A stretch of 19,714 bases of DNA from an uncultured Asticcacaulis sp. (GTDB lineage Bacteria > Pseudomonadota > Alphaproteobacteria > Caulobacterales > Caulobacteraceae), in contig CAMLIY010000030.1 in the NCBI GenBank assembly GCA_946480125.1, forward strand, positions 1 to 19,714. The letters are read 5' to 3'. A model generated the notes under the pieces. That model searched no databases and was not told the origin of the DNA. It saw only the letters and a program-made list of their open reading frames with translations. Below are positions 365-18,141 of the stretch, one piece after another (positions within the stretch are counted from its first letter, which is position 1; the number at the start of each line of letters is the position of its first letter). The position numbers and the translations under genes were made by a program.

Positions 365-1678
365 TTAATAAAGATCACGGCGGTATCGCCCGGATACCTT
401 GGCCTCATCGACCCAGGTTTGTCCGAGCGCGCCGGCAAGCGCCTGCTCAACCGCAAGCCCCATATCGCGGCCACCGCAGCACAGGATCGCGCCGGTATCC
501 CCCAGCCAGGACGGGATATCCGCATGCGCGCTTACGACGGCCTGAACATATTGGCCGGGGCCTTCGTCCGGCCGTGAAAAAGCCAGATCGAGTCGCGCCA
601 GACGGCCTTCGTCGCGCCACGCCTGCATGGTATTTGGCAGGGTGCCGTCACGTTGCGGATGGCGTTCGCCATAGATCAGCCAGACCTTGCGTCCTTGCGC
701 ATTCGCCTGAAGGATATGCGCCCGCAGGCCGGCCAGACCGGAACCCGCGCCAACCAGCAACAGCGGCCCGTCACCTTCCGGCATATGGAAACCCTTGTGC
801 GATTTGACGCGCAACGGCAGGCTGTCGCCGGCTTGTATGCCTTCGATCAGCAGGCCGGAGCCATCACCGCGCTCTCCGCTTGCTTTGCGCACTTCGCGCA
901 CGAACAGATCGAGCCGTCCCTCTTCCGGCAGCGTCGCTATCGAATAATCGCGCCGGTGGCCATTCTGAGTAGTGATTTCCACCAGATCCCCCGCCTGCCA
1001 GTCGATCGTTTGGCCGGTAAAGCTGAGGTGATATAGCGGATGGTCGCCCCGCTGATTGAGCCGCGTCCGCGACTCCAGCCGCCACGGCAGGCCGCTATCG
1101 GCATGAGCCGTTTCCTGCCCCCCCAGACCTGCCAGCAGATCATGCCATTTTTTCAGTGCCGCCGGATCAAGATCGTCAACCTCGATCACCGGCGTCACGG
1201 CTTCGCCTCCGCACGACACCAGCCAGTTGAAAATCTGGTGGCCGAAGGCACAGAACTGGTCGTACTTGCGATCGCCAAGGGCCAGAACAGCCACACTCCG
1301 CCCGGAAAAATCGGGTCTCTCACGCATCAGAGTTGCTTCAAACCGCAAGGCCTCATCGGGCGCGTCGCCCTCGCCGGTGGTCGACACCACGCAGAGGATA
1401 TGTTTGGCCGCCTGTAACTGCGCCACCGTCACCTTGGCGGTGGAGAGGACCTGAACATCGCGCCCGCCGGCTAGCAAGGATGCGGCGCTGTCATGGGCAA
1501 TCTCCTCCGCCTGTCCGGTCTGGGAGGCGTAAATCACCAGATAGTCGCTGGTGACGTCCGATGTTTTCCGGCCTTTCAACGCCGCCCACAGGCTGACCGC
1601 CACGAATCCTGCCGCCCAGGCGCCGGCCCAGGCCCAGCGCGCCGGATCATCGGTCAGACTATCAATGAAGGGAGTCAC
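365..1678 (-). CDS. Membrane-anchored flavodoxin/FNR-type flavoprotein reductase (sulfite reductase alpha-like)
   Basis: A 437-residue diflavin reductase. Residues about 15-34 are one hydrophobic segment, a likely N-terminal membrane anchor. Residues 46-185 are a flavodoxin domain: FMN phosphate loop Y-A-S-Q-T-G-Q (50-56), S-T-T-G-E-G-D (99-105) and L-G-D-R-K-Y-D (134-140). Residues about 200-437 are a ferredoxin-NADP reductase domain: R-D-Y-S (243-246) for FAD, G-A-G-S-G-L-A-G (310-317) for NADPH, C-G-G-R-D-M-G near 401-407, and a C-terminal Tyr as in plant-type FNRs. It is shorter than CysJ (about 600 residues), lacking most of the connecting domain, and no CysI partner is nearby, so assimilatory sulfite reduction is unlikely. 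It starts with GTG at 1678, overlapping the ApbE stop by 4 nt (GTGA), indicating translational coupling. Inferred role: cytosolic NADPH input for the membrane PepSY/DUF2271 redox system. Confidence 0.9.
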   Translation of the reverse strand: MTPFIDSLTDDPARWAWAGAWAAGFVAVSLWAALKGRKTSDVTSDYLVIYASQTGQAEEIAHDSAASLLAGGRDVQVLSTAKVTVAQLQAAKHILCVVSTTGEGDAPDEALRFEATLMRERPDFSGRSVAVLALGDRKYDQFCAFGHQIFNWLVSCGGEAVTPVIEVDDLDPAALKKWHDLLAGLGGQETAHADSGLPWRLESRTRLNQRGDHPLYHLSFTGQTIDWQAGDLVEITTQNGHRRDYSIATLPEEGRLDLFVREVRKASGERGDGSGLLIEGIQAGDSLPLRVKSHKGFHMPEGDGPLLLVGAGSGLAGLRAHILQANAQGRKVWLIYGERHPQRDGTLPNTMQAWRDEGRLARLDLAFSRPDEGPGQYVQAVVSAHADIPSWLGDTGAILCCGGRDMGLAVEQALAGALGQTWVDEAKVSGRYRRDLY

Positions 1679-2664
1679 AGCCAGGCCTCCAGACGCGGGC
1701 TTACCCGCTCACGGAAGGCACCGCCCTCACGCAGCCAGAACAGGCACGGGATATCGTGCGTCACGGCAAATTCCATGGCGCGCATCTCACCCATTACCAT
1801 CAGGGCCGTGGCCAGGGCATCGGCGCGCCAGCACTCGTGGTCGAACACTGTCACGCTGACAATGCCTGAGCGCGTCGGGGCCTGGGTACGGCTGTCGATG
1901 ATATGCGAATGCACCTGCCCGTCGTGTACGAACGATCGCACCTGTTCGCCGGAAGTCGCCACCGCCATGTCGCACAGGGCGGCCACGGTCGCTGCCTTGA
2001 CGGGCGTTTCAATTTCCACCCAGAACGGCAGGCCATCCGGCTGGACACCCCAGCCCTTCAGTTCGCCACCGACCTCGACCAGCGCGGAGCATACGCCCGG
2101 TTCAGCCTTGAGCAACTCCATCAGGCAATCGACGGCATAGCCCTTAGCGATGGCGCAGAGGTCGATTCGCACATCCACCGGCTTGATCAGGCCCTCCGCC
2201 TGCCAGGCCAGATCACGCCAGCGGCTGTTTGGCATATCCGAAACATCCGGCAATCCGGCAGGCACCGCCCTGGCGCCAAAACCCCACAACTCCACAGCCG
2301 ACAGAATGGCCGGATCGAAAGCGCCGTCGCTCAGGTCTGCCACATCAAGCGCATGGCGCATGACGGTCATAATCCGCGCCGGCAAGGCGACAAACGTGCC
2401 AGCCGGCGCCAGATTGAAGCGCGTCAGGTCGGAATCGATCCGGTACGGACTCATCTCGCGGTCGATTCCGTCCAGCACTGTTTGCAAGCGTACCTGCAAT
2501 CCCATCAGGACCGCATCGGCCTCGGCATAAATACTGACCCGCCAGGTCGTGGCGAAGGCCATGCCGCCCAGATCGTGACGCACTGTTCCGGCAGGCGCCT
2601 TTGGTTCCGCGACCAGGTCGGGGATCAGGACGCGCCGGTCAAAGGCGGGCAGCGGCAGGGTCAT
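1675..2664 (-). CDS. apbE: FAD:protein FMN transferase (ApbE family)
   Basis: A 329-residue ApbE. Family enzymes transfer FMN from FAD to a Thr/Ser in a [S/T]GA[T/S] motif of target proteins, using a divalent metal. Visible motifs in order: G-G-M-A-F-A-T-T-W (33-41), R-E-M-S-P-Y-R-I-D-S-D (69-79), D-G-A-F-D-P (113-118), D-L-C-A-I-A-K-G-Y-A-V-D (168-179; usually DLGGIAKGYAVD), V-E-V-G-G-E-L (196-202), A-T-S-G-E (236-240), H-I-I-D-S-R-T (254-260) and the metal-binding A-D-A-L-A-T (281-286). ATG 2664 follows the TAA of the DUF2271 gene with no gap, and that TAA is in frame, so the protein cannot start earlier. It has no signal peptide or lipobox, unlike the common periplasmic lipoprotein form; whether it works in the cytoplasm is an open question. 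The likely substrate is the DUF2271 product encoded just upstream. Confidence 0.93.
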   Translation of the reverse strand: MTLPLPAFDRRVLIPDLVAEPKAPAGTVRHDLGGMAFATTWRVSIYAEADAVLMGLQVRLQTVLDGIDREMSPYRIDSDLTRFNLAPAGTFVALPARIMTVMRHALDVADLSDGAFDPAILSAVELWGFGARAVPAGLPDVSDMPNSRWRDLAWQAEGLIKPVDVRIDLCAIAKGYAVDCLMELLKAEPGVCSALVEVGGELKGWGVQPDGLPFWVEIETPVKAATVAALCDMAVATSGEQVRSFVHDGQVHSHIIDSRTQAPTRSGIVSVTVFDHECWRADALATALMVMGEMRAMEFAVTHDIPCLFWLREGGAFRERVSPRLEAWL

Positions 2665-3186
2665 TTATGGCTTGTAGCTGAGCTTGACCGTGCCCAGTTC
2701 GGCGGTGCCCCTGGCGCTGGCCGTCGCCGCCTTGGCCGGGTTCCAGTTGAGCGGCAGCTTCACCTGATCATGGCCGCCCTGCTCACGCACGGCCTCTACG
2801 ACAAAGCTGTAAGCGCCGGGCTTCAGGCCCTTGAAAGCGGAGCTATTGGTATCCAGAGCCAGGGTGTTACGGCCGGGCGCGCGCGTGGCGCCGCTGAAGC
2901 CATCGGTCGAGGACAGGTCGCGGCCGCTCTTGCGCCACCACGAGCGCAGATCCTTCAGCCACTTGGCGCCGCGATTTTCCGGCTTCTTGACGTCGTACCA
3001 CAGAAAGGCGTTGGCGAGGTGATTGCCGGCGGCGTCCTCGATCCAGCCGGCGACATAGGGCTTGTGATATTCGGCGACTTTCTGCGTCGGGATTTCGATA
3101 TCGAGCACGACCTGGCCGGCATTTGCCGTGGAAACAGTGAGTCCTGTGGCCGCGACGGCGGCGAAGGCAAGGAATTTGGCAGTCAT
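2665..3186 (-). CDS. DUF2271 exported protein with predicted flavinylation site
   Basis: A 173-residue protein from ATG 3186. This start is preferred to one 35 codons upstream because it begins a clean signal peptide (residues 1-23, cleavage after A-N-A) and has a TGAGG ribosome site that overlaps the TGA stop of the PepSY gene, 8 nt away. The mature part is beta-rich, with W-I-E-D (48-51), W-Y-D-V-K-K-P (63-69) and R-S-W-W-R (81-85), as in DUF2271. Residues 95-101 read D-G-F-S-G-A-T, matching the FMN attachment motif of NqrC/RnfG-type flavoproteins, with Thr101 the expected acceptor. With apbE following immediately, this is probably a periplasmic FMN-carrying electron carrier working with the PepSY membrane protein. 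The family assignment is firm; flavinylation is inferred from motif plus context. Confidence 0.88.
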   Translation of the reverse strand: MTAKFLAFAAVAATGLTVSTANAGQVVLDIEIPTQKVAEYHKPYVAGWIEDAAGNHLANAFLWYDVKKPENRGAKWLKDLRSWWRKSGRDLSSTDGFSGATRAPGRNTLALDTNSSAFKGLKPGAYSFVVEAVREQGGHDQVKLPLNWNPAKAATASARGTAELGTVKLSYKP

Positions 3187-3194
3187 ATGAAACC

Positions 3195-3815
3195 TCAGGC
3201 GTGAACAAACAGCAGGAAAAGGATGAAAGGCAGTACTATGCCGAGTGCGACCAGCGGCCAGGTGACGCGGCGGCCTCTCGAATAAAGCCATAACAACCCG
3301 AAGCCGGTGATGGCGAAGACCACGCAGGCAATAGCGATCAGATCGATGAACAAGGCCCAGACCGGACCGGAATGACGGCCCTTATGCAGATCATTAAGCA
3401 CGGCAATCAGCCCGCGGTCGGTGCGTTCATAGGTGGCGTGGCCGTCGATGCGGCTGATCTCCAGCGTGGAATCGACACCCGGCGCCGACAGGGTGAGATA
3501 GATGCCGTCGTCATCGGCATCGACCGTGGCGCCGCGCACATCCACACCTGTCGCGCCGCGGATGGCCGTGGCCTGAACCGGCGTCAGCGGCACATTGGCG
3601 GTGACAGAAGACAAGCCGGCCAGTGTGGTTGGCGGCACCTGCCGCTCGATCTTCGTGACCTTGGGCTCGGCCTCAATCTGCGCGGCGTGGTTCAGCGTGA
3701 AGCCGGTCACGGAAAACAGCAGCAGCCCCATCAATGAAACAGCCGAACTGATCCAGTGCCACTGACGCAACTGGTTACGCCAGAAGCCTGATTTTGCCGT
3801 TGAGTAACTGGCCAT
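3195..3815 (-). CDS. PepSY-associated transmembrane protein (putative haem/redox membrane component)
   Basis: A 206-residue inner-membrane protein, first gene of the operon. Predicted membrane segments: about 22-42, 153-177 and 186-205. The intervening 50-150 region would be periplasmic and PepSY-like. The N-terminal signature W-H-W-I-S (19-23), the T-G-F-T-L-N-H segment (37-43) and L-H-K-G-R-H-S-G (143-150) are typical of PepSY_TM proteins. The four histidines H20, H43, H144 and H148 sit at membrane borders and could ligate haem; PepSY_TM proteins such as Pseudomonas FoxB are haem-containing ferric-siderophore reductases (established). This copy is much smaller than FoxB, so it could be a minimal version needing the flavoprotein partners. 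ATG 3815 has no clear Shine-Dalgarno sequence (pyrimidine-rich leader), but no better start exists upstream. A Fur-box-like sequence lies 20-54 nt upstream. Confidence 0.88.
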   Translation of the reverse strand: MASYSTAKSGFWRNQLRQWHWISSAVSLMGLLLFSVTGFTLNHAAQIEAEPKVTKIERQVPPTTLAGLSSVTANVPLTPVQATAIRGATGVDVRGATVDADDDGIYLTLSAPGVDSTLEISRIDGHATYERTDRGLIAVLNDLHKGRHSGPVWALFIDLIAIACVVFAITGFGLLWLYSRGRRVTWPLVALGIVLPFILFLLFVHA

Positions 3816-3951: not shown

Positions 3952-6051
3952 TTATTTTTTGACCTTTCCCTTGCCTTGGCTCTGAGGCACGAAGCGGATC
4001 GCCTCGCCACCGCCAGGCGCCAGTTTCAATGTCAGCGTATCAGCCGAGGTCACAGTCTGCTTTTCGATGACGATATCAAAGCGCGCGTTACCCTTGAGAT
4101 CGGCGTTCGGACCGTCGCGATAAATTTCCGCCGTATAGGTTACGCCCGGAGCCAGAAAAGCCAGTGGCGCTGACAAGGTGCGGGCATTCTCGTCCGTGAT
4201 CGATCCCAGGAACCAGTTGTCGGAATGGCGATCCTTGCGCGCAAAAGTGACGTAATCGCCGATCTCGCCGTTCAGCACCTGCGTATCGGCCCAGTCAACC
4301 GCCACGTCCTTGATAAACTGGAAGGGTTTTGGATATTTGGCGTAGTTCTCCGGCAGGTCGGCGGCCATCTGGATCGGCGAGTAGAGCACCACATAAAGCG
4401 CCAGTTGCCTGGCCTGGGTCGATAGCAAATCCTTTTTGTTACCTTCCAGGCTGAGTATGCCCGGCGTATAATCCATCGGGCCGGAAAGCATGCGCGTGAA
4501 GACGAGATTGACGTCATGCTCGGGCGGATTGATCGGGTTGCCCCAGGCATTATATTCCTGTCCCCTCGCCCCTTCGCGCGACACCCAGTTCGGATAGGTG
4601 CGGCGCAGGCCGGTATCCTTCACCGGCTCGTGGGTATCGATAGCGACGTGATATTTCGCCGCCGTGATGACGTTTTTCACATAGTGCTCGACCGCCTGCT
4701 GGCTGTCAGTATTGCCATAGAAGATGGTACCATCGGGCGCCCGCATCTGCGCCGCGCCAAATTCGTGGACATATCCTGTCTTGACGCTGTCGATACCGAG
4801 GCTTTCATCCAGCTTGAAAGCGGCCTCCATCTGGTCTTCGTAATGGGCTATATTACCGCCGGTCTCATGGTGTCCGATCAGGTGGACACCCTTTTTCAGC
4901 CCGTAAGCCGACAGCGCTTTGATATCGAAATCGGGATAGGCCTCGGTGAAGCTGAAATCCTTGCCATCACCGTACCAGACGCCATCCCAACCCTTGTTCC
5001 AGCCCTCAACCAGCACACCGCGAAAGCCATTATTGGCGGCGAAATCGATATATTTCTTGGTGTTCTCGGTCGTCGCCCCATGTTTCGGACCGGACGCCCA
5101 GGTCGATTTCTCCAGGTGCATCTCCCACCAGATGCCGACATACTTATAGGGTTTCACCCACGACACATCGCCAAGTGTATTGGGCTCATTGAGGTTCAGT
5201 TCGATGTTCGAGGTCAGCAGCGCCGGCGCGTTGTCAGTGATGATCATGGTCCGCCACGGCGTGGTGAATGGCGCCATCCGCACCGCCGCCGGCCCGATGG
5301 CCGAAGGCGCCAGTTGCGTGCGCAGGCGCTGGCCATCGACGCGCCTGATCCACATGGCCGGGTAATCGACCAAAGCGGCTTCATGGAAGGCGACATAGGT
5401 GCCGTCTGCCGTCTTGATCGTCATCGGCGTCTGGGCCTGACTGACCTCATCGAGCGGCGTCTGCTTGTAGAGATATTCGAGATTGGACAGTTCGCCGCCA
5501 AGTGCCCATAGCGCTGTCGCCTTGTCGACCACGGCGAATTCGGTCAGTTCCTCGCTGATCTTGACGTCGTGCAGTTGCGCCTGATCGGGGAATTCGTAGC
5601 GAAAGCCGACGCCATCATCGAAGACACGAAATACCACCGTCATTTTGCGGTTATCATAGGCGGCCTGAACGAGGTTGACGCGTACCTCATTATAATGGTC
5701 GCGCACGAACTGGCGCTCGCCCCACGGCTGTTCCCAGGTGTCGTCGTGGGTAGCCGAAGATGTGCTGCCGAGTGTGAACTTACCGTCGAGCTTCGGGGCA
5801 TTGGTCAGCACGAAACCCAGACGCGACGGCGAAATGACCTCGACACCCTTGCGCCTGACCTCATAGGCAGCGCGGCCCTCGCCATCGATCGAGACATCAA
5901 CCTGCAACTGGCCATCGGGCGACTGGACCGTAGCCACCACCGAACTGGCCGGCGCCGAGATACCTACGCCGTCGGCAAAAGCCGGCGTAAAGGCTGTCGC
6001 CATAGCCAGAAGGCAGACAGAGGCCAGACAGGCATTGAGTTTAAGTCCCAT
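3952..6051 (-). CDS. Glycoside hydrolase family 97 alpha-glucosidase-like enzyme (SusB type)
   Basis: A 699-residue exported enzyme: signal peptide 1-26 (cleavage near A-F-A), N-terminal GH97 beta-sandwich about 40-295, (beta/alpha)8 catalytic domain about 300-590, C-terminal beta domain to the end, with a basic tail. Length fits the family. Aligned by spacing to Bacteroides SusB (Glu508, Glu526, Glu532), the glutamates are E475 (T-H-E-P), E493 (R-E-G) and E499 (R-G-Q-E-Y); the spacing of 18 and 6 residues is exact. E396 in H-H-E-T probably equals SusB Glu439. The segment where retaining GH97 enzymes carry the Asp nucleophile reads V-K-T-G-Y here (G426), so an inverting, Ca-dependent alpha-glucosidase is likeliest. 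ATG 6051 has a GCGGA-like ribosome site. It is preceded by a LacI-type operator and the lacI-family gene, suggesting malto-oligosaccharide induction. Exact substrate is not proven. Confidence 0.93.
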   Translation of the reverse strand: MGLKLNACLASVCLLAMATAFTPAFADGVGISAPASSVVATVQSPDGQLQVDVSIDGEGRAAYEVRRKGVEVISPSRLGFVLTNAPKLDGKFTLGSTSSATHDDTWEQPWGERQFVRDHYNEVRVNLVQAAYDNRKMTVVFRVFDDGVGFRYEFPDQAQLHDVKISEELTEFAVVDKATALWALGGELSNLEYLYKQTPLDEVSQAQTPMTIKTADGTYVAFHEAALVDYPAMWIRRVDGQRLRTQLAPSAIGPAAVRMAPFTTPWRTMIITDNAPALLTSNIELNLNEPNTLGDVSWVKPYKYVGIWWEMHLEKSTWASGPKHGATTENTKKYIDFAANNGFRGVLVEGWNKGWDGVWYGDGKDFSFTEAYPDFDIKALSAYGLKKGVHLIGHHETGGNIAHYEDQMEAAFKLDESLGIDSVKTGYVHEFGAAQMRAPDGTIFYGNTDSQQAVEHYVKNVITAAKYHVAIDTHEPVKDTGLRRTYPNWVSREGARGQEYNAWGNPINPPEHDVNLVFTRMLSGPMDYTPGILSLEGNKKDLLSTQARQLALYVVLYSPIQMAADLPENYAKYPKPFQFIKDVAVDWADTQVLNGEIGDYVTFARKDRHSDNWFLGSITDENARTLSAPLAFLAPGVTYTAEIYRDGPNADLKGNARFDIVIEKQTVTSADTLTLKLAPGGGEAIRFVPQSQGKGKVKK

Positions 6052-6150
6052 TGATTCCGCTCCCGCTATGGGGACAGATACCCGCCCCTCATTATTGTTC
6101 GCTCCAGCTTTAAATGAGGATCATCATATCTGAAACCCTCAAACGATTAA

Positions 6151-6164
6151 TGCATACGTATTCA
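6151..6164. promoter_or_regulatory. LacI-family operator upstream of the GH97 gene
   Basis: The sequence TGCATACGTATTCA is an inverted repeat centred on CG (12 of 14 bases symmetrical), the form TGnnAnCGnTnnCA typical of LacI/PurR-family operators. It lies about 100 nt upstream of the GH97 ATG, in the 132-nt gap between lacI and GH97. A possible minus-strand -10 element TATGAT (6123-6128) would place the operator just at or upstream of the -35 region. The regulator encoded next to it is the natural candidate ligand. Confidence 0.6.
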
Positions 6165-6183
6165 ATCTGTGTGGACCAAGGAC

Positions 6184-7227
6184 CTAATGCCGTTTCAGGT
6201 TCAGGCCGCCGCAAGATTCCCGGATAACCAATCTGGTCGGCATCCGCGTCACATGCACCGGCTCATTCTCGATCAGACAGGTCAGTCCGTCGATGAGGGC
6301 CCTGGCCGCGGCTTCGGTATCCTGCCGCACCGTACTGAGCGACGGCGACAACGACGAACAGACCCACAGGTCGTCGAACCCCATCACCGAGACGTCCTCC
6401 GGCACCCGTACCTTGCGCCGGATCAGTTCCTGCATGGCGCCCATGGCCAGCAGATCGGTGGCGGCAAAGACGGCATCGAACGCAATACCGTCATCGAGCA
6501 GAGTATCGATGGCGGCCACGCCCTCCTCGCGTTCCAGAAAAACATCGGCGTGCAGGGCCGCGTCAATCTTCAAACCGGCATCTTTAAGCGCCCGGCAATA
6601 GCCTTCATAGCGCTCCTTGAATTCCGGGTGCTCAATGGACGACTTGCCGAGATAGGCGATGCGCGTGCGGCCGAGATGGATCAGGTGCTGGACCGCCGCA
6701 TAAGCCCCGCCTTCATTGTCCGAGCCGATGCACAGCCGGGCGCAATCCGGCCGGTCGACGCCCCAGACCACCCACGGATCGCCGACTTCGTTGAGGTATT
6801 CGAACTTGTGGGTATAGGACTGGTAGTCCTTGCAGCCGAGGAAGATAATGCCATCGGCGCGGCGCGAAAACCCGTAATCCGTGCCCCAGTCATCGCTCTG
6901 CTGTTGCAGCGAAATCAGCACGTCATAGCCCTTCTGGCCGGCATATTTGAGGATGGAGCCGATCAGCGGCAGAAAAAACGGATTGATCGGATTGTCACTC
7001 TTGTCGAGATCTTCCGAGATCAGCACGGCCAGGGTATGAATCTTCTTCGAGCGTAGTTTGCGCGCATTGGAATCAACCTTGTAGTTCAGGCTCTTGGCGG
7101 CCTCCATTACCCTCTGGCGCGTTTCGTCATTGACCAGCGGCGATTGTGACAAGGCGCGCGATACTGTGGTTTGTGACACGCCGGTTATGGCGGCGATATC
7201 GAGCGATGTCGGTCGTTTTACAGCCAT
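6184..7227 (-). CDS. LacI-family transcriptional regulator
   Basis: A 347-residue LacI/GalR repressor. Residues 7-50 form the N-terminal helix-turn-helix and hinge (T-S-L-D-I-A-A-I-T-G-V-S at 7-18, T-V-S-R-A-L at 21-26, and the usual N-Y-K motif at 48-50). Residues about 62-345 are the periplasmic-binding-protein-like sensor (R-A-D-G-I-I-F, V-M-G-F-D-D and S-T-V-R-Q signatures). The ATG lies 3 nt beyond the TGA of the halogenase gene, so the two are cotranscribed, and the GH97 gene follows 132 nt later with its own operator. The nearest targets are therefore the GH97 gene and perhaps the halogenase promoter; the ligand is likely a glucoside or malto-oligosaccharide (inferred from GH97). Confidence 0.95.
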   Translation of the reverse strand: MAVKRPTSLDIAAITGVSQTTVSRALSQSPLVNDETRQRVMEAAKSLNYKVDSNARKLRSKKIHTLAVLISEDLDKSDNPINPFFLPLIGSILKYAGQKGYDVLISLQQQSDDWGTDYGFSRRADGIIFLGCKDYQSYTHKFEYLNEVGDPWVVWGVDRPDCARLCIGSDNEGGAYAAVQHLIHLGRTRIAYLGKSSIEHPEFKERYEGYCRALKDAGLKIDAALHADVFLEREEGVAAIDTLLDDGIAFDAVFAATDLLAMGAMQELIRRKVRVPEDVSVMGFDDLWVCSSLSPSLSTVRQDTEAAARALIDGLTCLIENEPVHVTRMPTRLVIRESCGGLNLKRH

Positions 7228-7230
7228 GGA

Positions 7231-8748
7231 TCAGCTCGCCACAAGCATTTTGGCGATACGGTCGAGATAGGCGCGGTGATCGGGCAAGCTGTTCACCCGG
7301 TCGCTAATGCCGGTGCGGATTTTCGCCAGGCGCAGCTTCAGATTATCTTCTGAAATCGTATCGGCCAGCGGGTGATAATTTTCCGGGAAAAGCCCCTGCC
7401 CGACCAGGACGGCAAACCAGCTTGGCTCCCTGAAAAGCTCATAGGGCTGGACGTGGACATGGCCGGTTTCGCGGAAGATGTCCAGCCGGCTTTTCAGGCT
7501 GTCGGGAATCTCCATATATTTGCAGTGCTTCCAGAACGGCGTGTCTTCGCGGTCCGTCACCTTGTAGTGGGCGATGAGAAAATCTTTCACATTGACATAA
7601 TCAGCCAGGACATCGGCATTGAACTGGTCGACCACGCTCTGGGAAATGCCGTTTTTGGGAAACTGGTTGATCAGCTTCGTGATCACCGCCTGGCCAAGAT
7701 GGATGGAGGTCGATTCCAGCGGTTCGAGAAAACCAGACGCCAGCCCGACCGCGACGACATTCCTGTTCCATATTTTCCGGCGATGCCCGGTAGTGAAGCG
7801 CAGCACTTTCGGATCTTTGAGCGCCTGCCCCGGCAGGCGCGACAGCAGTTTTTCACAGGCTTCGTCTTCGCTGATATAATCTGAGCAGAAGACGTAACCA
7901 TTACCGGTGCGGTGCTGCAACGGAATCCGCCACTGCCAGCCGGCCTCGCGCGTGGTGCAGACGACATACGGATCGATCGGCCCTGACGGGGACTCGCACG
8001 GCACCGCGGCGGCGCGATCGCAGGGCAGCCAGTGGCGCCAGTCCTCATAGCCGCTTTTCAGCGTCTGCTCGATCAACAGACCGCGGAAGCCCGAACAGTC
8101 GATAAAGAAATCGCCTTCGACAATCTGGCCATCCTTGAGATGAACGGCGGTCACAAAGCCGGACTCGGCCGCCTGATCGACCTGCGTCACCACACCTTCG
8201 ACCCGCCGCACACCACGCTTTTCCGAATAGCGCCGCAAAAAGGCGGCATACAGACCGGCATCGAACTGGAAGGCATAGGTGAGCGGATATTTGTCACGGC
8301 CATCGCCCGGTGGCGAGCGGCCAAACCGGGCCTGCATCGCCGCCTGTGTTTCGGTATTGAAGCGGCCAAAATCGGCATTGCCACTCAGATGGGCGAAGCG
8401 CATCCAGTAATGGTTAAAACTGATGCCATCCATATCCTGGCCCAGATAGCCAAACGGATGGAAATAGCTGTCCTGGCCGTCGCGCCAGCCATCGAAGCGG
8501 ATACCCAGCTTGAAGGTGGCGCTGGTTTCGCGAATGAACTCATCCTCATTGATATCGAGCAGTTTATTGAACTGGAGGATCGGTGGAATGGTCGCCTCGC
8601 CGACGCCGACCGTACCGATTTCATCCGATTCGATCAGGGTGACATCGTACATCACCGTGCCCATCACCTTGGAAAACAGCGACGCCGCCATCCATCCCGA
8701 AGTGCCGCCGCCGACAATGACGATTTTCCTGATGCGTTGCGTCTGCAT
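7231..8748 (-). CDS. Flavin-dependent (tryptophan-type) halogenase
   Basis: A 505-residue member of the tryptophan halogenase family. FADH2-dependent halogenases form hypohalous acid at the flavin and deliver it through a tunnel to an aromatic substrate. Visible: FAD loop G-G-G-T-S-G-W (13-19), G-V-G-E-A-T-I-P (48-55), the tunnel lysine K80 in T-F-K-L-G (PrnA Lys79 equivalent), the halogenase signature W-x-W-x-I-P at 271-276, and E345 in P-L-E-S-T-S-I-H (PrnA Glu346 equivalent). All key residues are present, so it should be active. No flavin reductase or secondary-metabolite gene is adjacent; it is cotranscribed with the LacI regulator. Halogenases of this branch often sit in TonB-receptor/sugar-utilisation loci of Caulobacterales and Xanthomonadales, and characterised relatives (for example BrvH of Brevundimonas) accept indole; the native substrate is unknown. 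Confidence 0.92.
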   Translation of the reverse strand: MQTQRIRKIVIVGGGTSGWMAASLFSKVMGTVMYDVTLIESDEIGTVGVGEATIPPILQFNKLLDINEDEFIRETSATFKLGIRFDGWRDGQDSYFHPFGYLGQDMDGISFNHYWMRFAHLSGNADFGRFNTETQAAMQARFGRSPPGDGRDKYPLTYAFQFDAGLYAAFLRRYSEKRGVRRVEGVVTQVDQAAESGFVTAVHLKDGQIVEGDFFIDCSGFRGLLIEQTLKSGYEDWRHWLPCDRAAAVPCESPSGPIDPYVVCTTREAGWQWRIPLQHRTGNGYVFCSDYISEDEACEKLLSRLPGQALKDPKVLRFTTGHRRKIWNRNVVAVGLASGFLEPLESTSIHLGQAVITKLINQFPKNGISQSVVDQFNADVLADYVNVKDFLIAHYKVTDREDTPFWKHCKYMEIPDSLKSRLDIFRETGHVHVQPYELFREPSWFAVLVGQGLFPENYHPLADTISEDNLKLRLAKIRTGISDRVNSLPDHRAYLDRIAKMLVAS

Positions 8749-10815: not shown

Positions 10816-11268
10816 TTAACGTTCGAGCTTCGCCGCCAGGATGATCGAGGTCGTGGTGCGCTCCACACCATCAAGCAGACCGATGCGGTTTATCAGTTCA
10901 TTCATCTCAATACTGTCAGCCGCCTCGACCAGCACAATAATATCGTATTCGCCGCTGATGGCATAGACAGCCGACACTTCCGGAATCTCCGGCAGCTTCA
11001 ATTCGACCTCCTGGCACAGGCGCGGCATTGTTTTGATCATGACATGCGCCCGCAGGCGGGATTTCGAATAAGCCTGGCCTAATCTCACGGTGTAACCGTC
11101 AATAATGCCCTCGGTCTCAAGCCGTTCCAGCCGGGCATAGACCTGAGTGCGCGGGATATCCAACATGCTTGCCAGCTGTGACACCGGAAGACGGGAATTT
11201 TCGCGCAAGGAGGCCATAAGCTTGCGGTCAATGGCGTCCAGTTCAGGTGCGGGCTTGCGGGTGGTCAT
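10816..11268 (-). CDS. Lrp/AsnC-family transcriptional regulator
   Basis: A 150-residue Lrp/AsnC protein. Residues 9-60 form the winged helix-turn-helix (L-D-A-I-D-R-K-L at 10-17, T-Q-V-Y-A-R-L-E-R-L at 41-50, G-I-I-D-G-Y at 54-59). Residues about 72-148 are the RAM amino-acid-binding domain, with the typical V-Y-A-I-S-G-E-Y-D motif. The ATG overlaps the stop codon of the peptidase fusion gene (ATGA, 11265-11268), so synthesis is translationally coupled to it. This is unusual for a global Lrp and points to a local, amino-acid-responsive regulator, sensing perhaps the products (such as Asp, Asn or Arg) of the fusion enzyme, and possibly acting on the repeat-rich region at 13212-13422. Confidence 0.94.
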   Translation of the reverse strand: MTTRKPAPELDAIDRKLMASLRENSRLPVSQLASMLDIPRTQVYARLERLETEGIIDGYTVRLGQAYSKSRLRAHVMIKTMPRLCQEVELKLPEIPEVSAVYAISGEYDIIVLVEAADSIEMNELINRIGLLDGVERTTTSIILAAKLER

Positions 11269-13211
11269 TTTTTCAGCTTTTCATCGCCATAGATCGCCGT
11301 TCGGATAACGGGGGAATCGGAAGATACAGTCCCACGATACATGCCAATGTCGTTGATGGCAAAGGCCGGTTTGCCGCTCGCGTCCATGGCGATCAGACCA
11401 CCGTCACCCCCGATCGATCCGATCGACATGATGGTGTCGTAGGCGGCCGCTTCGATATCCTGATGGTTCCAGCGCACGCGGTCGCAGACCTGACGGCCGG
11501 CGGAATCGCGGATGAAATATTCGCCGGTGCCGGTGGCCGAGACGGCGCAGTCGCCATCGCGCGCATAGGTGCCTGAGCCAATAAGCGGCGAGTCGCCGAT
11601 ACGGCCCCATTGCTTGCCGGTCAGGCCGCCGGTCGAAGTCGCCGCCGCCAGATGGCCGTCGCTGTCGATCGCCACCGCGCCCACCGTGCCGTACATATGG
11701 GTCGGGTTTATCATGGCGGTGTTGTCTTTCTTCCACGCCTTGAGCATCTGCTCACGTTCGGGCGTATGGAAATAGCCGGGATCTTCCTGCACCAGACCCT
11801 GGGTTTTTGAGAAGGCGTCCGCGCCCTCACCCGCCAGCAAAACGTGGCGCGTCTTGTCCATGACGGCGCGCGCCGCCATGATCGGGTTTTTGGTGCGCGT
11901 CAAAGCCGCCACGGCGCCGGCTTTCATCGTGCCGCCGTCCATGATGGCGGCGTCGAGATAGACATTGCCGTCCGCCGCGATCGCCGCGCCCTTGCCGGCG
12001 TTGAACAGGGGATTGTCTTCCAGCGGCTTGAGCGTCGCCTCGACCGCATCGAGCGACGATCCGCCCTTATCGAGCACGGCCTGCCCCGCCGCCAGCGCAG
12101 CATTGAGCCCGGCGCGATAGGCGGCGTCGGTTTCCGGCGTCAGATCTCCGCGATCGATCACGCCGGCGCCACCATGAATGGCGAGCGACCAGTGATTTTG
12201 TTTTGTCAGCACCCCGTCTGTGACATCATAGGTGCGCGTAAAGGCCGGCTGGCCGACCTCCAGAGTTTTGATATTGAAGGTGCTGGTCTTGCCGATGCCG
12301 GTGACGCTGACATTCCTGATATTAAGCGGCTTGCCCGGCGCCAAGTCATGAAGTTCACCGCCCTGAACCAGCCAGGCATGACCGTCGAGATTGGAATAAA
12401 CCCTGGCTGCACCGTCCGCCTCTATCGTCATGGCAGCTTCCTGATCGATACCCAGGCCGACCAGGGGTTGGGCATAACGTTTACCATCGGCATCGCGAAG
12501 GCTTTCGGCCTTCACCACGAAAGCAATCAGGCGCCCCAGGCGATCGCGGACATCGAAATGGCTGTCGGTGACGATATTGGCCAATGGTGCCGAATGCAGG
12601 AAATCGCCCACAATGGTATTCCCCGGCCCCATCGGGTCCTTCATGGCTTCCGGCGAGGTAATACTGTTGCCATCCATGGCGCCGTAAAGCCAGGACCCTT
12701 GCACCGCCAAACCAGCCGAGGTGCCGCCGATCGGCTTGCCCGCCGCCACATGGGCGTCAAGCGCTGCGTTGAGCGGCGTGCCCTTCCACATGCGGACATA
12801 GTTGGACTGATCGCCACCCGCCAGGAAAATACCGTCTGCATGCTTCACCGCGTCGAGCAATCTGGCGTCATAGGACGCCTTGCGGTCGGTGAACAGGAAG
12901 GTACGCACCGAGGCCGCGCCCTTTACTTTGTTATAGAATTCATCCTGTGATTCCGTGGTGCCCGAAGCCCGCAGCACGACAATATGGCCGTGACCGGCGT
13001 GGGCGGTAAACCAGCGGAAGGCATCATAGGCCCATTCGCCGCCGCCACTGAGCAGGAAACCGCCCTTGACCGGATCGGTGGTCGGCTTCGCTTCATCACC
13101 GATGATGAATGTCTTGTAGCCCGGACCGGCCTTCCATTCTTCTGCCTGCGCGACATTACCGAGATTTAACGCCACCAGGGCGAGACTTAAGGCGAGAATC
13201 GGATAACGCAT
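11265..13211 (-). CDS. Exported fusion: S51 cyanophycinase-like peptidase + isoaspartyl peptidase/L-asparaginase
   Basis: A 648-residue protein from ATG 13211 (GGAG ribosome site 7 nt upstream; a start 15 codons earlier would spoil the signal peptide). Residues 1-23 are a signal peptide (cleavage near A-Q-A). Residues about 45-300 are S51 peptidase: G-G-D-Q (132-135), nucleophile Ser165 in G-T-S-A-G, and D-x-H-F-x-x-R-x-R-x-x-R (216-227) with His218, as in cyanophycinase. Residues about 340-648 are a complete Ntn-hydrolase isoaspartyl peptidase: nucleophile Thr509 after the Gly508 cleavage point, Thr527, Arg537, Asp540 and Thr560, exactly at the spacings of E. coli IaaA (179/197/207/210/230). 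The pair matches the two steps of cyanophycin breakdown: polymer to beta-Asp-Arg, then to Asp and Arg. Odd: the third triad position (Glu in G-I-D-E) reads Gln257. It is upstream of the Lrp gene and divergent from a TonB-dependent receptor. Confidence 0.9.
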   Translation of the reverse strand: MRYPILALSLALVALNLGNVAQAEEWKAGPGYKTFIIGDEAKPTTDPVKGGFLLSGGGEWAYDAFRWFTAHAGHGHIVVLRASGTTESQDEFYNKVKGAASVRTFLFTDRKASYDARLLDAVKHADGIFLAGGDQSNYVRMWKGTPLNAALDAHVAAGKPIGGTSAGLAVQGSWLYGAMDGNSITSPEAMKDPMGPGNTIVGDFLHSAPLANIVTDSHFDVRDRLGRLIAFVVKAESLRDADGKRYAQPLVGLGIDQEAAMTIEADGAARVYSNLDGHAWLVQGGELHDLAPGKPLNIRNVSVTGIGKTSTFNIKTLEVGQPAFTRTYDVTDGVLTKQNHWSLAIHGGAGVIDRGDLTPETDAAYRAGLNAALAAGQAVLDKGGSSLDAVEATLKPLEDNPLFNAGKGAAIAADGNVYLDAAIMDGGTMKAGAVAALTRTKNPIMAARAVMDKTRHVLLAGEGADAFSKTQGLVQEDPGYFHTPEREQMLKAWKKDNTAMINPTHMYGTVGAVAIDSDGHLAAATSTGGLTGKQWGRIGDSPLIGSGTYARDGDCAVSATGTGEYFIRDSAGRQVCDRVRWNHQDIEAAAYDTIMSIGSIGGDGGLIAMDASGKPAFAINDIGMYRGTVSSDSPVIRTAIYGDEKLKK

Positions 13212-13280
13212 GACGAACTCCGTACGGTTTAGTGCGCAAATGCAACATATGACCATAACTGTGATCGCAAATTGTCCTTA

Positions 13281-13300
13281 TGGCAACAATTTGATTGCCA
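13281..13300. promoter_or_regulatory. Inverted repeat TGGCAA-N8-TTGCCA in the divergent control region
   Basis: A 20-bp inverted repeat with six perfect outer base pairs, 70 nt upstream of the fusion-peptidase ATG on the minus strand and 122 nt upstream of the receptor ATG. Its size and symmetry suit a dimeric regulator such as the adjacent Lrp protein; no direct evidence of binding. Confidence 0.4.
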
Positions 13301-13304
13301 AGTT

Positions 13305-13320
13305 TGACACAATGATGTCA
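13305..13320. promoter_or_regulatory. Inverted repeat TGACA-N6-TGTCA in the divergent control region
   Basis: A perfect 5-bp inverted repeat, 4 nt from the neighbouring TGGCAA repeat. Its left arm also forms a TTGACA (13304-13309) that could serve as a -35 element for the receptor, but no convincing -10 follows at 17 nt. It may be an operator. Confidence 0.35.
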
Positions 13321-13346
13321 CTTTTCCTCATGTTTCCGCAAAAATA

Positions 13347-13388
13347 GTGCAATTTGAAACTATATTTGCACATTTATCCCATTTGCAC
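13347..13388. repeat. Triplicated GTGCAAAT/ATTTGCAC half-sites before the TonB-dependent receptor
   Basis: ATTTGCAC occurs at 13364-13371 and again at 13381-13388 (17-nt period), and its near-complement GTGCAAT at 13347-13353, so that GTGCAA (13347-13352) and TTGCAC (13366-13371) make an inverted repeat. A related GTGCGCAAAT lies at 13232-13241. The cluster lies 35-76 nt upstream of the receptor ATG and looks like a multi-site operator, which would suit Lrp-type cooperative binding. Confidence 0.4.
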
Positions 13389-13422
13389 TTGCGAACAACG
13401 TTACGTAAAACAGGAGCTGCCC

Positions 13423-16221
13423 ATGCTGAACACCAGGCCTAATATGACCCTCGGCCGTCTTTGCAAGCTGACCTTGCTTGCCGGATGCAGCTTTTACGGC
13501 CTGCACGGCGCGGCCAATGCACAGGATACCGCAGCCACACCTGCCGCCGATGAACCCCAGACCGTTGTCGTCCTCGGTTCGCGCATTCCGCGTACGCAGA
13601 AGGAAGGTCCGGCGCCGGTCACCGTGATCACCTCCGATCAAATCCGCGCCGGCGGCTATGCCAGTGTGCCTGATGTGCTCAAGACGGTGACACAAAATGG
13701 AGGTGACACCCAGGGCCAGCAATCCGGCAATGCCGCCGACTATTCGCCGGGCGCGCAACAGGTTGATCTGCGCGGCCTTGGCCCTAACCATACCCTGGTC
13801 ATGGTCAATGGGCGGCGGGTTGCCGATTTCCCAATGCCGTTCAATGGCGATTCCAACTTTACCGATATCTCCAATATTCCGCTGGGCATGGTGGATCAGA
13901 TTGAAATCCTCTCCGGTTCCGCCTCCGCCATTTATGGCTCGGACGCCCTGGCCGGGGTGGTGAACTTCAAGCTCAAAGAGCATTATGACGGCACCACACT
14001 CGATTACCGCTACGGCTGGACCGAGAAGGGCGGTGGTCAGTCGCACCGCCTGAACTATTCTTCCGGCTTTGACGCCGGCAAGTTCCACGGCGTCTTCGGT
14101 GGCGAAGTCCAGTGGACCGATCTGATCTATGGTTATCAGCGCAAGGCGCAGGATTCGGCGCTCGATGCGCCCGCCGGCTCCGGCTACGATCTGCCGGTGC
14201 AAAACTGGCTTCGTGTTAATTACGATGTCTACGCCATCGATCCGACCGAAGCGCAATGCGCGCTCTCCAGCGGCACCAATGGCGGAACCACCCAGTACGC
14301 GACGGACGACTATTACAGCGACGGAGACAATCTGGGCGGCTATTGCGGCAGTAACGAAGCCGTGGCTTACCGCACCATCCAGTCCGAACGCCACTCAGCC
14401 AATTTTGTCGGCTCGTTTACCTACGACCTTAACGACCGCACCCATTTCTTTACCGATGTCCAGTTCGGCATTTCAAAGCTGAAATTGTTGAAACGCCCGA
14501 CCTCGTGGGGCTATCAGGATGAAACCGGCAATGATGTCGGTGACTTTTATAATATAAACCCGGGCACCGACGGAACCGACAACTGGTACCGCATCTTCAC
14601 GCCTGAAGAAATGGGCGGGCTTGATAAGGCCATGCGCCGCGTTGATGCCACCACCTTCACCATCACGCCCGGCGTACGCGGCACCTTCGGCAGCGAAGAC
14701 AAGTGGTCATACGAACTGTCGCTCAATGCCAGCGTATACAACGCGGAAGTCAAGTTCCCCTTCATCAATGCCGCCAAGGCCAATGCCTTCTTCCTGGGGC
14801 CACAGCTCGGCATGGACACAGATCCGGAATATCTCGGTGAAGACGATGGCTATGGCCTGCCTGTCTTCAACGCCGACCCGACGCGCTTCTATACCCCCCT
14901 CACGCCGGCGGAATATGCGTCCATTGCCGAGACCGGCACCTATAAGCCGCGCAGCTCCGTGGCCGAACTCTCGGCCCAGATCGGCACCCAGGACCTGTTC
15001 CAGATGCCTGCCGGGCCTGTGGGTTTCAACTTCCTCGTCGAAACCGGCCGCCAGGATTACAATCAGGGCACCGACCCGAAAGCCACGCAACCCTACTATT
15101 TCAGCTGGGTGGATTTTACCGCCAAGGGACACCGTACGCATTCCGCGGCCGCCGTGGAATTTTCGATCCCGCTGCTTTCCACCCTGTCATCCAGCGCCGC
15201 CGCCCGCTACGATCATTATGATTATGCCGGCCACAGCGTGGGCGAGGCCACCTATAATCTCGGTCTCGAATATCGCCCGCTCAAAACCCTTCTGTTCCGC
15301 GCCGCCTGGGGTACAGGTTTCCGCGCCCCGGACCTCAACTATGTCTATCGCGGCATCGGTTATGAAGAAGGCAGCGCCACCGATTATTACCAGTGCTACA
15401 ACGATCCGGATTCCGAGTATCCGGATGATTGCGGGCGCGGCGGGCGCATCCGCGTCCAGACCGGCGGCAATCTGAATCTGAAACCCGAAACCAGTGAATC
15501 GGTCAATGCCGGTATCGTCTGGGCGCCATCCCGCATGTTTGATATCAGCGTCGACTATTTCAACATCAAGATGGAAGGTGAAGTCGAGGATCTGGTGGTC
15601 AATAACCTGACCCGTACCGAAGGCGAATGCCGCAACGGTTTGCAGGATATATCCAGCCCCACCTGCCAGGACGCCATTTCCCGCGTCACGCGTGACGGGG
15701 ACGGCGATATTTCGATGGTCTTCGTCAGTCCGATCAATGTCGCCAAGGAATCGACCTCAGGTATCGATATCGCCGGTCATCTGCGTTTCGATACGCCGAT
15801 CGGCATTCTGGGGCTGAGTGGCAGCTATACCCATGTCAATGATCACGACTATACGCGTTATGCCGGCGATGACGCCATCGATAAACTGGCCGTCGATTCC
15901 GACTATTACATACCGCGTAATAAGGCTTCGGCCAGCGTCAACCTGAAAACCGGCAAGTGGAAATTCAACATTGACGGTAATTTTGTCGACCGCCTGCCTA
16001 ATTACGACGAAGATGCCTGGGTTGCGTCTTACACCACCTATAACGGCTCGGTACAATATGAAGTGAATGAGGATGTCAGCATTTCGCTGGCGATCGACAA
16101 CCTCTTCGACACCAAACCGCCGCATGACGACACGTGGGTCAGCTATCCCTACTATTACAGCAACTGGTATGACGGCATCGGCCGCTCAGGCTTCCTGCAA
16201 GTTACCTACAAATTCAAATAA
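13423..16221 (+). CDS. TonB-dependent outer-membrane receptor
   Basis: A 932-residue receptor from ATG 13423, chosen over an ATG 23 codons upstream because AGGAG (13412-13416) is 6 nt away and it begins the signal peptide (1-33, cleavage A-N-A/Q). A TonB-box-like T-V-V-V-L-G (47-52) precedes the plug domain (about 55-185; D-L-R-G-L-G-P at 115-121, V-N-G-R-R at 128-132, I-Y-G-S-D-A-L-A-G-V-V-N at 170-181). The rest is a 22-strand barrel ending in V-T-Y-K-F-K. Three closely spaced cysteine pairs fall in probable surface loops. It is divergent from the cyanophycinase/isoaspartyl-peptidase fusion, so it may import the peptide or polymer fragments that this enzyme digests. Substrate is inferred from context only. 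No partner SusD is present; Caulobacteraceae generally lack them. Confidence 0.95.
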   Translation: MLNTRPNMTLGRLCKLTLLAGCSFYGLHGAANAQDTAATPAADEPQTVVVLGSRIPRTQKEGPAPVTVITSDQIRAGGYASVPDVLKTVTQNGGDTQGQQSGNAADYSPGAQQVDLRGLGPNHTLVMVNGRRVADFPMPFNGDSNFTDISNIPLGMVDQIEILSGSASAIYGSDALAGVVNFKLKEHYDGTTLDYRYGWTEKGGGQSHRLNYSSGFDAGKFHGVFGGEVQWTDLIYGYQRKAQDSALDAPAGSGYDLPVQNWLRVNYDVYAIDPTEAQCALSSGTNGGTTQYATDDYYSDGDNLGGYCGSNEAVAYRTIQSERHSANFVGSFTYDLNDRTHFFTDVQFGISKLKLLKRPTSWGYQDETGNDVGDFYNINPGTDGTDNWYRIFTPEEMGGLDKAMRRVDATTFTITPGVRGTFGSEDKWSYELSLNASVYNAEVKFPFINAAKANAFFLGPQLGMDTDPEYLGEDDGYGLPVFNADPTRFYTPLTPAEYASIAETGTYKPRSSVAELSAQIGTQDLFQMPAGPVGFNFLVETGRQDYNQGTDPKATQPYYFSWVDFTAKGHRTHSAAAVEFSIPLLSTLSSSAAARYDHYDYAGHSVGEATYNLGLEYRPLKTLLFRAAWGTGFRAPDLNYVYRGIGYEEGSATDYYQCYNDPDSEYPDDCGRGGRIRVQTGGNLNLKPETSESVNAGIVWAPSRMFDISVDYFNIKMEGEVEDLVVNNLTRTEGECRNGLQDISSPTCQDAISRVTRDGDGDISMVFVSPINVAKESTSGIDIAGHLRFDTPIGILGLSGSYTHVNDHDYTRYAGDDAIDKLAVDSDYYIPRNKASASVNLKTGKWKFNIDGNFVDRLPNYDEDAWVASYTTYNGSVQYEVNEDVSISLAIDNLFDTKPPHDDTWVSYPYYYSNWYDGIGRSGFLQVTYKFK

Positions 16222-16314: not shown

Positions 16315-18066
16315 CTATTTCAGGTCATCCGCTTGATAGACCACCTTGCCGCCGATCATGGTCATCAGCACCTGCGTGCCGCTGATTTCTACCGGCTTGA
16401 TCTGGAACAGATTGCGATCAAGCACGATCAGGTCGGCGAATTTGCCGGCTTCGAGCGAGCCTGTTTCCTTATCCTGACGCAAGCTGTAGGCGGCATTGAA
16501 GGTGATTGCCCGCACCGCCTGCGCCACCGTCAGACCGGGATCGATGCCCAGCCGATCCGGATAGGTCACGGCATCCTCGCCGATCGCCTGGCGCGTCACG
16601 GCGATCTGCAGGGCCAGCCATTCATCGAGCGCATCCACCGGCCAGTCCGAACCATAGACAATGCGCGCGCCGTAGATTTCAAGCAGGCCCGCCGGCTCCA
16701 TCAGCGCCGACCGCACCGGCCCCAACGCCGCCATTGATTGTGCGATATCGATGGAAGGCCGTTCCCACTGAAAGGACAGCACCGGCAGAGCGCCCACCGC
16801 GGCATAGCGTTTGTAATCCGCCGGATCAACGATCTCGTCATGGGCGATAGCCGGACGGATATCATCCGCCGGATGCACTTTTCGCATCGCCTCGACCGCA
16901 TTCAACCCCATCCGTACCGAGCCATCGCCATCGGCGTGCATATGCGGATTAAGCCCCGCCGCCGCCAGTTTGATCAGGGTGTTATCAAGCTGTGCCTGCG
17001 AAAAATAGGGCTTCGGCCCGTAATTATGCCCTGGCTTGCCATTTTCGAAATAGGGCTCGACCATCACCGCTGAAAGGGCCGGCGCCGAATAGACGCCATC
17101 CAAAAACAACTTGGCTGTATCGACTTTCATTATCGGTTTGGCGCCATCCGGCTTTTGCTCGAACCGGGCCTTCTCCTCCAAAACCTCGTCTATGGCCTTG
17201 TCGGCATCATAATCTGCCGGGGAATCGATCAGTACGGCGAAATGCGCCCGCGCCGTTAGCCCGCCTTCTTTTGAGATGGAGCGATAGGCCGTCATGGTCT
17301 CGATATCGGTATAGGCATCAAGAAACGAGGTAATCCCCTGCTCACGCATGGCCTTTAGCGCCAGTTGCGTCGCCTGGTAATTTGTCTCGACCGAGGGCGG
17401 CGGCACCAGTTTGTCAATCAGCTCCTGCGCCGCATCCTGTAACAGCCCCGTCGGCTCGCCTGAAGAATCGCGCACGATCTTGCCGTCCTTGGGGTCGGGC
17501 GTTTCACGGGTGATACCGGCCAGTTGCAGACCACGCGTATTGGTCAGGTTAGAATGGCCGAAGGACGAATGGACCTTGATCGGTCGGGTAGTCTTCACGC
17601 CATCGAGCGCGACCCGCGTCAGGACGGTGCCCTGCGGCTTCGCCCCCTGCTCGAACCAGTTGATGACCTGCAACCAGTCGTCGGGCCCCGCTCCCTTGTC
17701 ATCATCGGCGCATTTCTGGATGCGCGCCTGAAATTCAGGGATGGTCAGGCTTTCATAGTTGAGATTGCAGTTGAGCATGCGCAATCCGCCCGATTGCGGG
17801 TGCATGTGACCGTCGATCAGGCCCGGCATGACCATTCGGCCTTTAAGGTCGATCACCTGCGTCTGGCGGCCAGTAAAGGTTTTCGCCCCGGCCTCATCCC
17901 CGACATAGACGATCCGGCCGTCCTTTACCGCCATCGCCTGGGCCACGCTGTTGGCCGCATCGACCGTATAGATATAGCCATTGCGGTAGACCGTATCCGC
18001 TGCGGGCATTTTCGCCTGTACACCAAAGGCCATGAATACCAGCCCCAAAAGCAAAACTCTCTTCAT
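16315..18066 (-). CDS. Exported amidohydrolase, YtcJ-like (amidohydrolase 3 family)
   Basis: A 583-residue metal-dependent amidohydrolase. ATG 18066 is preferred to an ATG 12 codons upstream because it begins a signal peptide (1-18, cleavage V-Q-A) and has AGGGGA 9 nt upstream. Small N-terminal beta part (20-80), then metal site: H87-x-H89 in D-G-H-M-H-P, K319 in T-A-K-L-F-L-D-G, H377 in H-M-H-A-D-G, H409 in A-I-A-H-D, and D474 in Y-G-S-D-W-P. C-terminal residues [15 protein letters not shown] are typical. Family members hydrolyse N-substituted amides, but specificity is not predictable. It faces the receptor gene across a terminator and is divergent from the ABC transporter with a 75-nt gap. 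Periplasmic location could fit scavenging of amides. Confidence 0.9.
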
Positions 18067-18141
18067 CGGCAAACATCCCCTGTCGTTTTTTGGCGCATGC
18101 ATGACTATATAGGCGGCACACTATCCGGCAAAGGAAATCAG

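Follow-up and report, generated by a model that had tools for sequence, protein, structure and literature searches.

A two-domain S51–isoaspartyl peptidase encoded beside a TonB-dependent receptor in Asticcacaulis: a candidate scavenger of cyanophycin or related beta-aspartyl peptides

The isoaspartyl peptidase EcAIII (IaaA; structures 2zak and 3c17, with RhIaaA in 8dqm) is a cytosolic single-domain enzyme, and the cyanophycinase CphB (3en0, 7uqw) is intracellular and single-domain as well. A 19,714-nucleotide stretch of contig CAMLIY010000030.1 from an uncultured Asticcacaulis sp. (hereafter the window) codes for a protein that joins relatives of both: an S51 domain, 25% identical to CphB over the aligned part, precedes a plant-type asparaginase/isoaspartyl peptidase domain of the N-terminal nucleophile (Ntn) type, so that, unlike EcAIII, the peptidase stands behind an S51 domain and carries an export signal. 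CphE, the extracellular cyanophycinase of Pseudomonas alcaligenes/anguilliseptica, is also an S51 protein with an export signal. According to the available part of PMC3235067, it shares with the window protein the Ser, His, Gln, Asp and three Arg residues, the Asp-to-Arg spacing and a Thr/Ser in place of CphB Gln173. It differs in that no Ntn domain is described for it in that part of the source, while the window protein has 12 extra residues between the catalytic His and position 257 and a Gln instead of the Glu.

Cyanophycin utilisation loci, as presented in the available part of PMC10206079, contain cyanophycinase and iadA/iaaA genes and no cphA1; the combination of cyanophycinase and iaaA without cphA1 was reported there for 32 genomes, 94% of them with clustered genes. 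The fusion locus resembles these loci in covering both steps without a synthetase. However, they are clusters of separate genes, whereas the window has one gene together with a TonB-dependent receptor and an Lrp regulator, and the words fused, fusion, bifunctional and multidomain do not occur in that part of the paper. In Citromicrobium, cyanophycin uptake was predicted to proceed via a receptor encoded beside the cyanophycinase gene (PMC3400609, in the available part of which the word asparaginase is absent). The titles and abstracts searched, which cover subscription literature thinly, held no description of the fused architecture or of the locus. The parts and the pathway are already known; the one-chain exported form with a receptor was not found described.

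We lean towards reading the locus as a scavenging one, whose product would break down cyanophycin or related beta-aspartyl peptides in two periplasmic steps coupled to TonB-dependent import. An earlier sequence-only reading had proposed a possible self-contained beta-aspartyl polymer degrader, exported as one polypeptide to the periplasm or outside the cell. Its account of the protein is confirmed by sequence: both domains follow one export signal on a single chain, both nucleophiles (Ser165 and Thr509) are present and invariant across the fused sequences aligned, the Gly508-Thr509 autocleavage motif is present and conserved, and the S51 domain is of the cyanophycinase type, not the PepE type. 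The protein did not prove singular or self-contained, as Alphaproteobacteria, Steroidobacteraceae and Xanthomonadales have many proteins of this architecture, and the locus also encodes a TonB-dependent receptor, joined in many genomes by an Lrp-type regulator. The features of the fusion gene are as follows.

11265..13211, minus strand: S51–isoaspartyl peptidase fusion gene, 648 amino acids
13143..13211, minus strand: signal-like peptide, residues 1-23 (cleavage between A23 and E24 placed by eye; crude signal test)
12246..13070, minus strand: cyanophycinase-like S51 domain, residues ~48-322
12807..12809, minus strand: Gln135, counterpart of CphB Gln101
12717..12719, minus strand: Ser165, S51 nucleophile, counterpart of CphB Ser132
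12531..12566, minus strand: Asp216, Ser217, His218, Arg222, Arg224 and Arg227, catalytic His and putative substrate pocket
12441..12443, minus strand: Gln257, codon CAG; the triad Glu in most relatives
11280..12197, minus strand: plant-type asparaginase/isoaspartyl peptidase (Ntn) domain, residues 339-644
11685..11690, minus strand: Gly508-Thr509 autocleavage motif; Thr509, predicted nucleophile, matches EcAIII Thr179
11592..11603, minus strand: Arg537 and Asp540, matching EcAIII Arg207 and Asp210, presumed substrate Asp clamp

Database search with the window protein returned 6861 proteins at E ≤1e-3 among 7996 scored. Both Pfam domains were present in all 120 matches listed, with Asticcacaulis, Novosphingobium, Sphingopyxis, Altererythrobacter and Steroidobacteraceae among the names. 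A second search, for which the query was a fused protein of 50% identity, gave 2823 matches and again both domains in 120/120 listed, Pseudoxanthomonas, Thermomonas and Lysobacteraceae being among the names. Since the architecture is kept in every listed relative, a chance open reading frame (ORF) or a frameshift artefact can be ruled out.

The residues critical in CphB beside Ser132 are Gln101, Asp172, Gln173, Arg178, Arg180 and Arg183, and the CphE counterparts are Ser171, His224, Glu251, Gln136, Asp222, Thr223, Arg228, Arg230 and Arg233 (PMC3235067, available part). The window set comprises Ser165, His218, Gln135, Asp216, Ser217, Arg222, Arg224 and Arg227, with the Asp-to-Arg spacing of CphB and CphE. 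In an alignment of 121 fused sequences, the window protein among them, Ser165 and His218 of the triad are invariant, as are Gln135, Asp216, Arg222, Arg224 and Arg227, which correspond to Gln101, Asp172, Arg178, Arg180 and Arg183 of CphB. Position 217 is Thr or Ser throughout, Thr being the CphE residue. The Gln at position 135 is shared by 119 of 120 standalone S51 proteins. The PepE model NF003642 scored 20.1 bits against a cut-off of 156 and covered residues 76-174 only; this coverage, together with fold ranking, rules out a PepE-type domain. We infer that the S51 domain is a serine hydrolase with a cyanophycinase pocket.

The Ntn half passed PF01112, which we take to be MEROPS family T2, with 317.3 bits (cut-off 27); its score with the beta-aspartyl-peptidase equivalog model NF007589 was 253.2 bits, under the curated 567. 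By alignment, EcAIII Asn67, Thr179, Thr197, Arg207, Asp210, Thr230 and Gly231 correspond to window Asn404, Thr509, Thr527, Arg537, Asp540, Thr560 and Gly561, all of which, along with Gly508, are invariant in the fused sets of both searches. We assume the usual functional roles for these EcAIII residues, including the catalytic Thr residues and the Arg207/Asp210 clamp. A lone isoaspartyl-peptidase paralogue, 66-68% identical to the window Ntn half, was seen at six other loci (L101-L106); at L101, the one scanned, it lies beside GH31 and GH42/DUF5597 glycosidase genes. This paralogue might act on glycosylasparagine. Another single-domain isoaspartyl peptidase gene, on an Azospirillum lipoferum plasmid (L115), neighbours M55 and P1 peptidases and a glutathione/dipeptide ABC transporter.

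The genes next to the fusion in the window are the following.

10816..11268, minus strand: Lrp/AsnC-type regulator, overlapping the fusion gene by 4 nt
13423..16221, plus strand: divergent TonB-dependent receptor (start MLNTRP picked by eye; longest ORF from 13354)
16315..18102, minus strand: Amidohydro_3 family protein with a signal-like N-terminus by eye, kept beside the locus in Asticcacaulis

We surveyed the neighbourhoods of 47 loci (20 fused, 12 with adjacent S51 and peptidase genes, 5 S51-only and 10 lone Ntn) for relatives of the window receptor. A divergent receptor gene lies ≤500 nt upstream at 32 of the 37 S51 loci: 19/20 fused, 9/12 adjacent and 4/5 S51-only. The remaining S51 loci have a receptor at 2.3-2.4 kb (L142, L145), downstream (L149) or ~5.5 kb off (L110), or stand on a contig that begins ~1 kb before the gene (L146). 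None of the 10 lone Ntn genes has such a receptor within 500 nt. A wider look at these loci, for which some of the neighbours were scanned, revealed other receptors ~7 kb (L101) and ~2 kb (L095) upstream and again none within 500 nt; at L095 the best-matching receptor part of the survey is 3.9 kb away, and a large ORF opposite the L109 peptidase gene had no Pfam match. Receptor linkage follows the S51 gene, not the Ntn gene. Four genomes of 3.7-4.8 Mb contain 45, 60, 78 and 99 receptor plug domains, so such adjacency should be rare by chance, though the loci are related and their counts are not independent.

Lrp/AsnC-like sequence was found on the same strand ≤150 nt downstream at 12/20 fused and 5/12 adjacent loci, and an Amidohydro_3 gene within 4 kb at 16/20 fused loci and at none of the 12 pairs. 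In three close relatives (L085, L087, L090) an SDF-family symporter gene (GltP/DctA-type) lies 23 nt from the fusion. Since the enzyme is encoded in one locus with a TonB-dependent receptor, and often an Lrp regulator, the periplasm is favoured and the extracellular half of the earlier proposal is less so; receptor linkage and the lack of a lipobox in the window copy both point to a periplasmic location. On the fusion-gene strand, the 13212-13422 region between the divergent genes carries TGACATCATTGTGTCA, which to the eye is nearly palindromic and is kept in alignment of the closest Asticcacaulis loci; a search of this region for inverted repeats with arms ≥10 found none and did not report TGACATCATTGTGTCA.

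No cyanophycin synthetase (TIGR02068, E 1e-60) was found in any of 21 genomes, the completeness of which is not stated; weak matches (≤85.8 bits) in two genomes are probably other ligases. Own cyanophycin synthesis by the carriers was rejected on this basis, which makes turnover of a storage polymer unlikely and scavenging likely. In the proposed scheme, the divergent receptor would import cyanophycin fragments or similar beta-aspartyl-branched peptides. The S51 domain, judging by its residues and fold, may trim them to beta-aspartyl dipeptides, which the Ntn domain, self-cleaved at Gly508-Thr509, would split to aspartate and a second amino acid; this last step is well supported by homology. 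The free amino acids would then be taken up and presumably sensed by the Lrp/AsnC regulator of the same operon, and the organism would live off other microbes' polymer. The receptor arrangement suggests that import concerns oligomers rather than granules, unless the protein is released from the cell as well.

Several observations weigh against the cyanophycin scheme. At neutral pH cyanophycin dissolves poorly, and the whole polymer may therefore not pass a TonB-dependent receptor. The S51 domain scored 83.5 bits with the cyanophycinase model TIGR02069, under its curated cut-off of 126.6 (three unfused relatives gave 78.2-86.5 bits). Among solved structures, the closest in sequence is 7uqv, titled pseudo-CphB, in which the pocket residues and the Glu are likewise present; if 7uqv is no cyanophycinase, these shared residues would be insufficient for the assignment. 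A literature search for its organism together with cyanophycin found nothing. Lone S51 genes were found at 5 loci of the family sample, no arginine-specific gene was noted among the window genes covered by family scans, and DgcN beside 5 of the 12 unfused pairs points to another diet there. Finally, the window copy departs by one codon (CAG, Gln257) from the triad Glu. Cyanophycin is a candidate substrate. Lasso peptides and microcystins were also considered as conceivable substrates.

Position 257 is Glu in 118 of the 121 fused sequences (Gln in the window protein and P0048, Asp in one), in 117 of 120 standalone S51 proteins (Gln in three) and in all 120 of the second fused set. The rarity of Gln would fit a window copy that is an isoaspartyl dipeptidase only, its S51 domain having lost some or all activity and serving as a scaffold or binding module. 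We consider this improbable: the remaining S51 residues that were checked are unaltered, the recurrence of Gln in other fused and standalone sequences suggests that it may be tolerated, and a single-base error in the record is possible. Gln257 may be a real substitution or a sequence error, and it calls for caution with the window copy, which may not be fully active.

The DgcN neighbours raise the alternative that the locus encodes a TonB-coupled general degrader of isoaspartyl and D-acidic peptides (from aged proteins or cell-wall cross-bridges) that is not specific for cyanophycin, with the S51 domain removing beta-aspartyl-containing units and the Ntn half splitting the isopeptide bond. Unfused S51-IaaA-Lrp operons of five Caulobacteraceae genomes (L096-L100) lie beside DgcN and D-aminoacylase-like Amidohydro_3 genes in 5/5 cases, DgcA in 4/5 (not called in L096) and an M61 peptidase in 4/5 (not called in L100). 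At L110 (9597-12181) an S51 paralogue gene overlaps a D-aminoacylase-like Amidohydro_3 gene by 4 nt. The DgcN neighbours scored 469-477 bits, just below the cut-off of 480, and the one DgcA neighbour scored had 391 bits against 400. However, matches to DgcN occur in only 5 of 23 genomes, those of L096-L100, and none in the 14 fused-gene genomes (E 1e-20), which rules it out as a general partner; the S51 pocket moreover matches that of two enzymes with cyanophycin as their substrate, CphB and CphE (PMC3235067, available part). We therefore see a general degrader as possible but rather unlikely.

The fusion was found in 14 of 149 genomes from the family of the Asticcacaulis taihuensis genome (G001). 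In an even class-wide sample, with three candidates per genome scored, it occurred in 1 of 385 (E 1e-60) and its distribution is therefore patchy. Two Novosphingobium fusions are borne on plasmids of 1.76 and 1.82 Mb. Genome G135 has a shorter second fusion copy (L082) ~25 kb away from the other one; the receptor-like sequence next to L082 appears as short ORFs.

Elsewhere, unfused S51 and peptidase genes adjoin in several genomes, S51 first; at six adjacent pairs whose starts were inspected (L096-L100, L144) the peptidase has its own signal-like N-terminus by eye. In a 398-genome phylum sample, the S51 half had matches (E 1e-40) in 10 genomes, three with fusions (G001, G863, G554) and seven with adjacent pairs (G037, G662, G785, G605, G609, G800, G878); since scoring was limited to three candidates per genome, lone S51 genes could have escaped notice.

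In the tree of Ntn halves, seven Xanthomonadales-type fusions fall inside a clade (100/100) that also holds seven unfused pairs and is separate from the 38 fusions of alphaproteobacterial type. A single clade of all fused Ntn halves was rejected (p 8.28e-54; 45 fused vs 26 unfused rows), and again (p 4.66e-36; 45 vs 17) when nine unfused rows of the alphaproteobacterial side were left out, since unfused rows nest within that set. The groups were named after viewing a first tree, and all trees have long branches. Fused and standalone rows are intermixed in the S51 tree, where nine changes are needed; some standalone sequences derive from short metagenome contigs and could be fragmentary. As the two fused types form no single clade, the simplest account is that the domains were probably joined twice; one ancient fusion followed by several splits is possible. 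Probable double fusion and the adjacency of separate genes elsewhere argue that both steps act together, suggesting that the S51 and Ntn enzymes work as a team. An ordinary asparaginase/glycosylasparaginase supplying periplasmic asparagine, with the S51 domain as a passenger, is hard to reconcile with repeated fusion and adjacency to S51 or with receptor linkage that tracks S51, and we give it very little credence.

More speculatively, there may be a TonB-coupled uptake system whose substrates are isoaspartyl and D-acidic peptides in general (damaged proteins, cell-wall material and cyanophycin alike) and whose catalytic core is the S51-IaaA pair, fused probably twice. We find this broader proposal doubtful; no description of such a system in its own right was found in the titles and abstracts searched. 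If degradation of cyanophycin (or isoaspartyl peptide) is indeed the function, both breakdown steps would reside on one exported chain tied to an outer-membrane importer, a concrete route for heterotrophs to feed on cyanobacterial nitrogen stores, and such single-gene enzymes might yield aspartate and arginine from the polymer.

The rest of the window holds two further gene rows on the minus strand: 365-3815, including ApbE-like and flavodoxin/FAD-reductase-like proteins (named by eye from translations), and 3952-8748, with a GH97 glycosidase, a LacI regulator and a tryptophan-halogenase-like gene.
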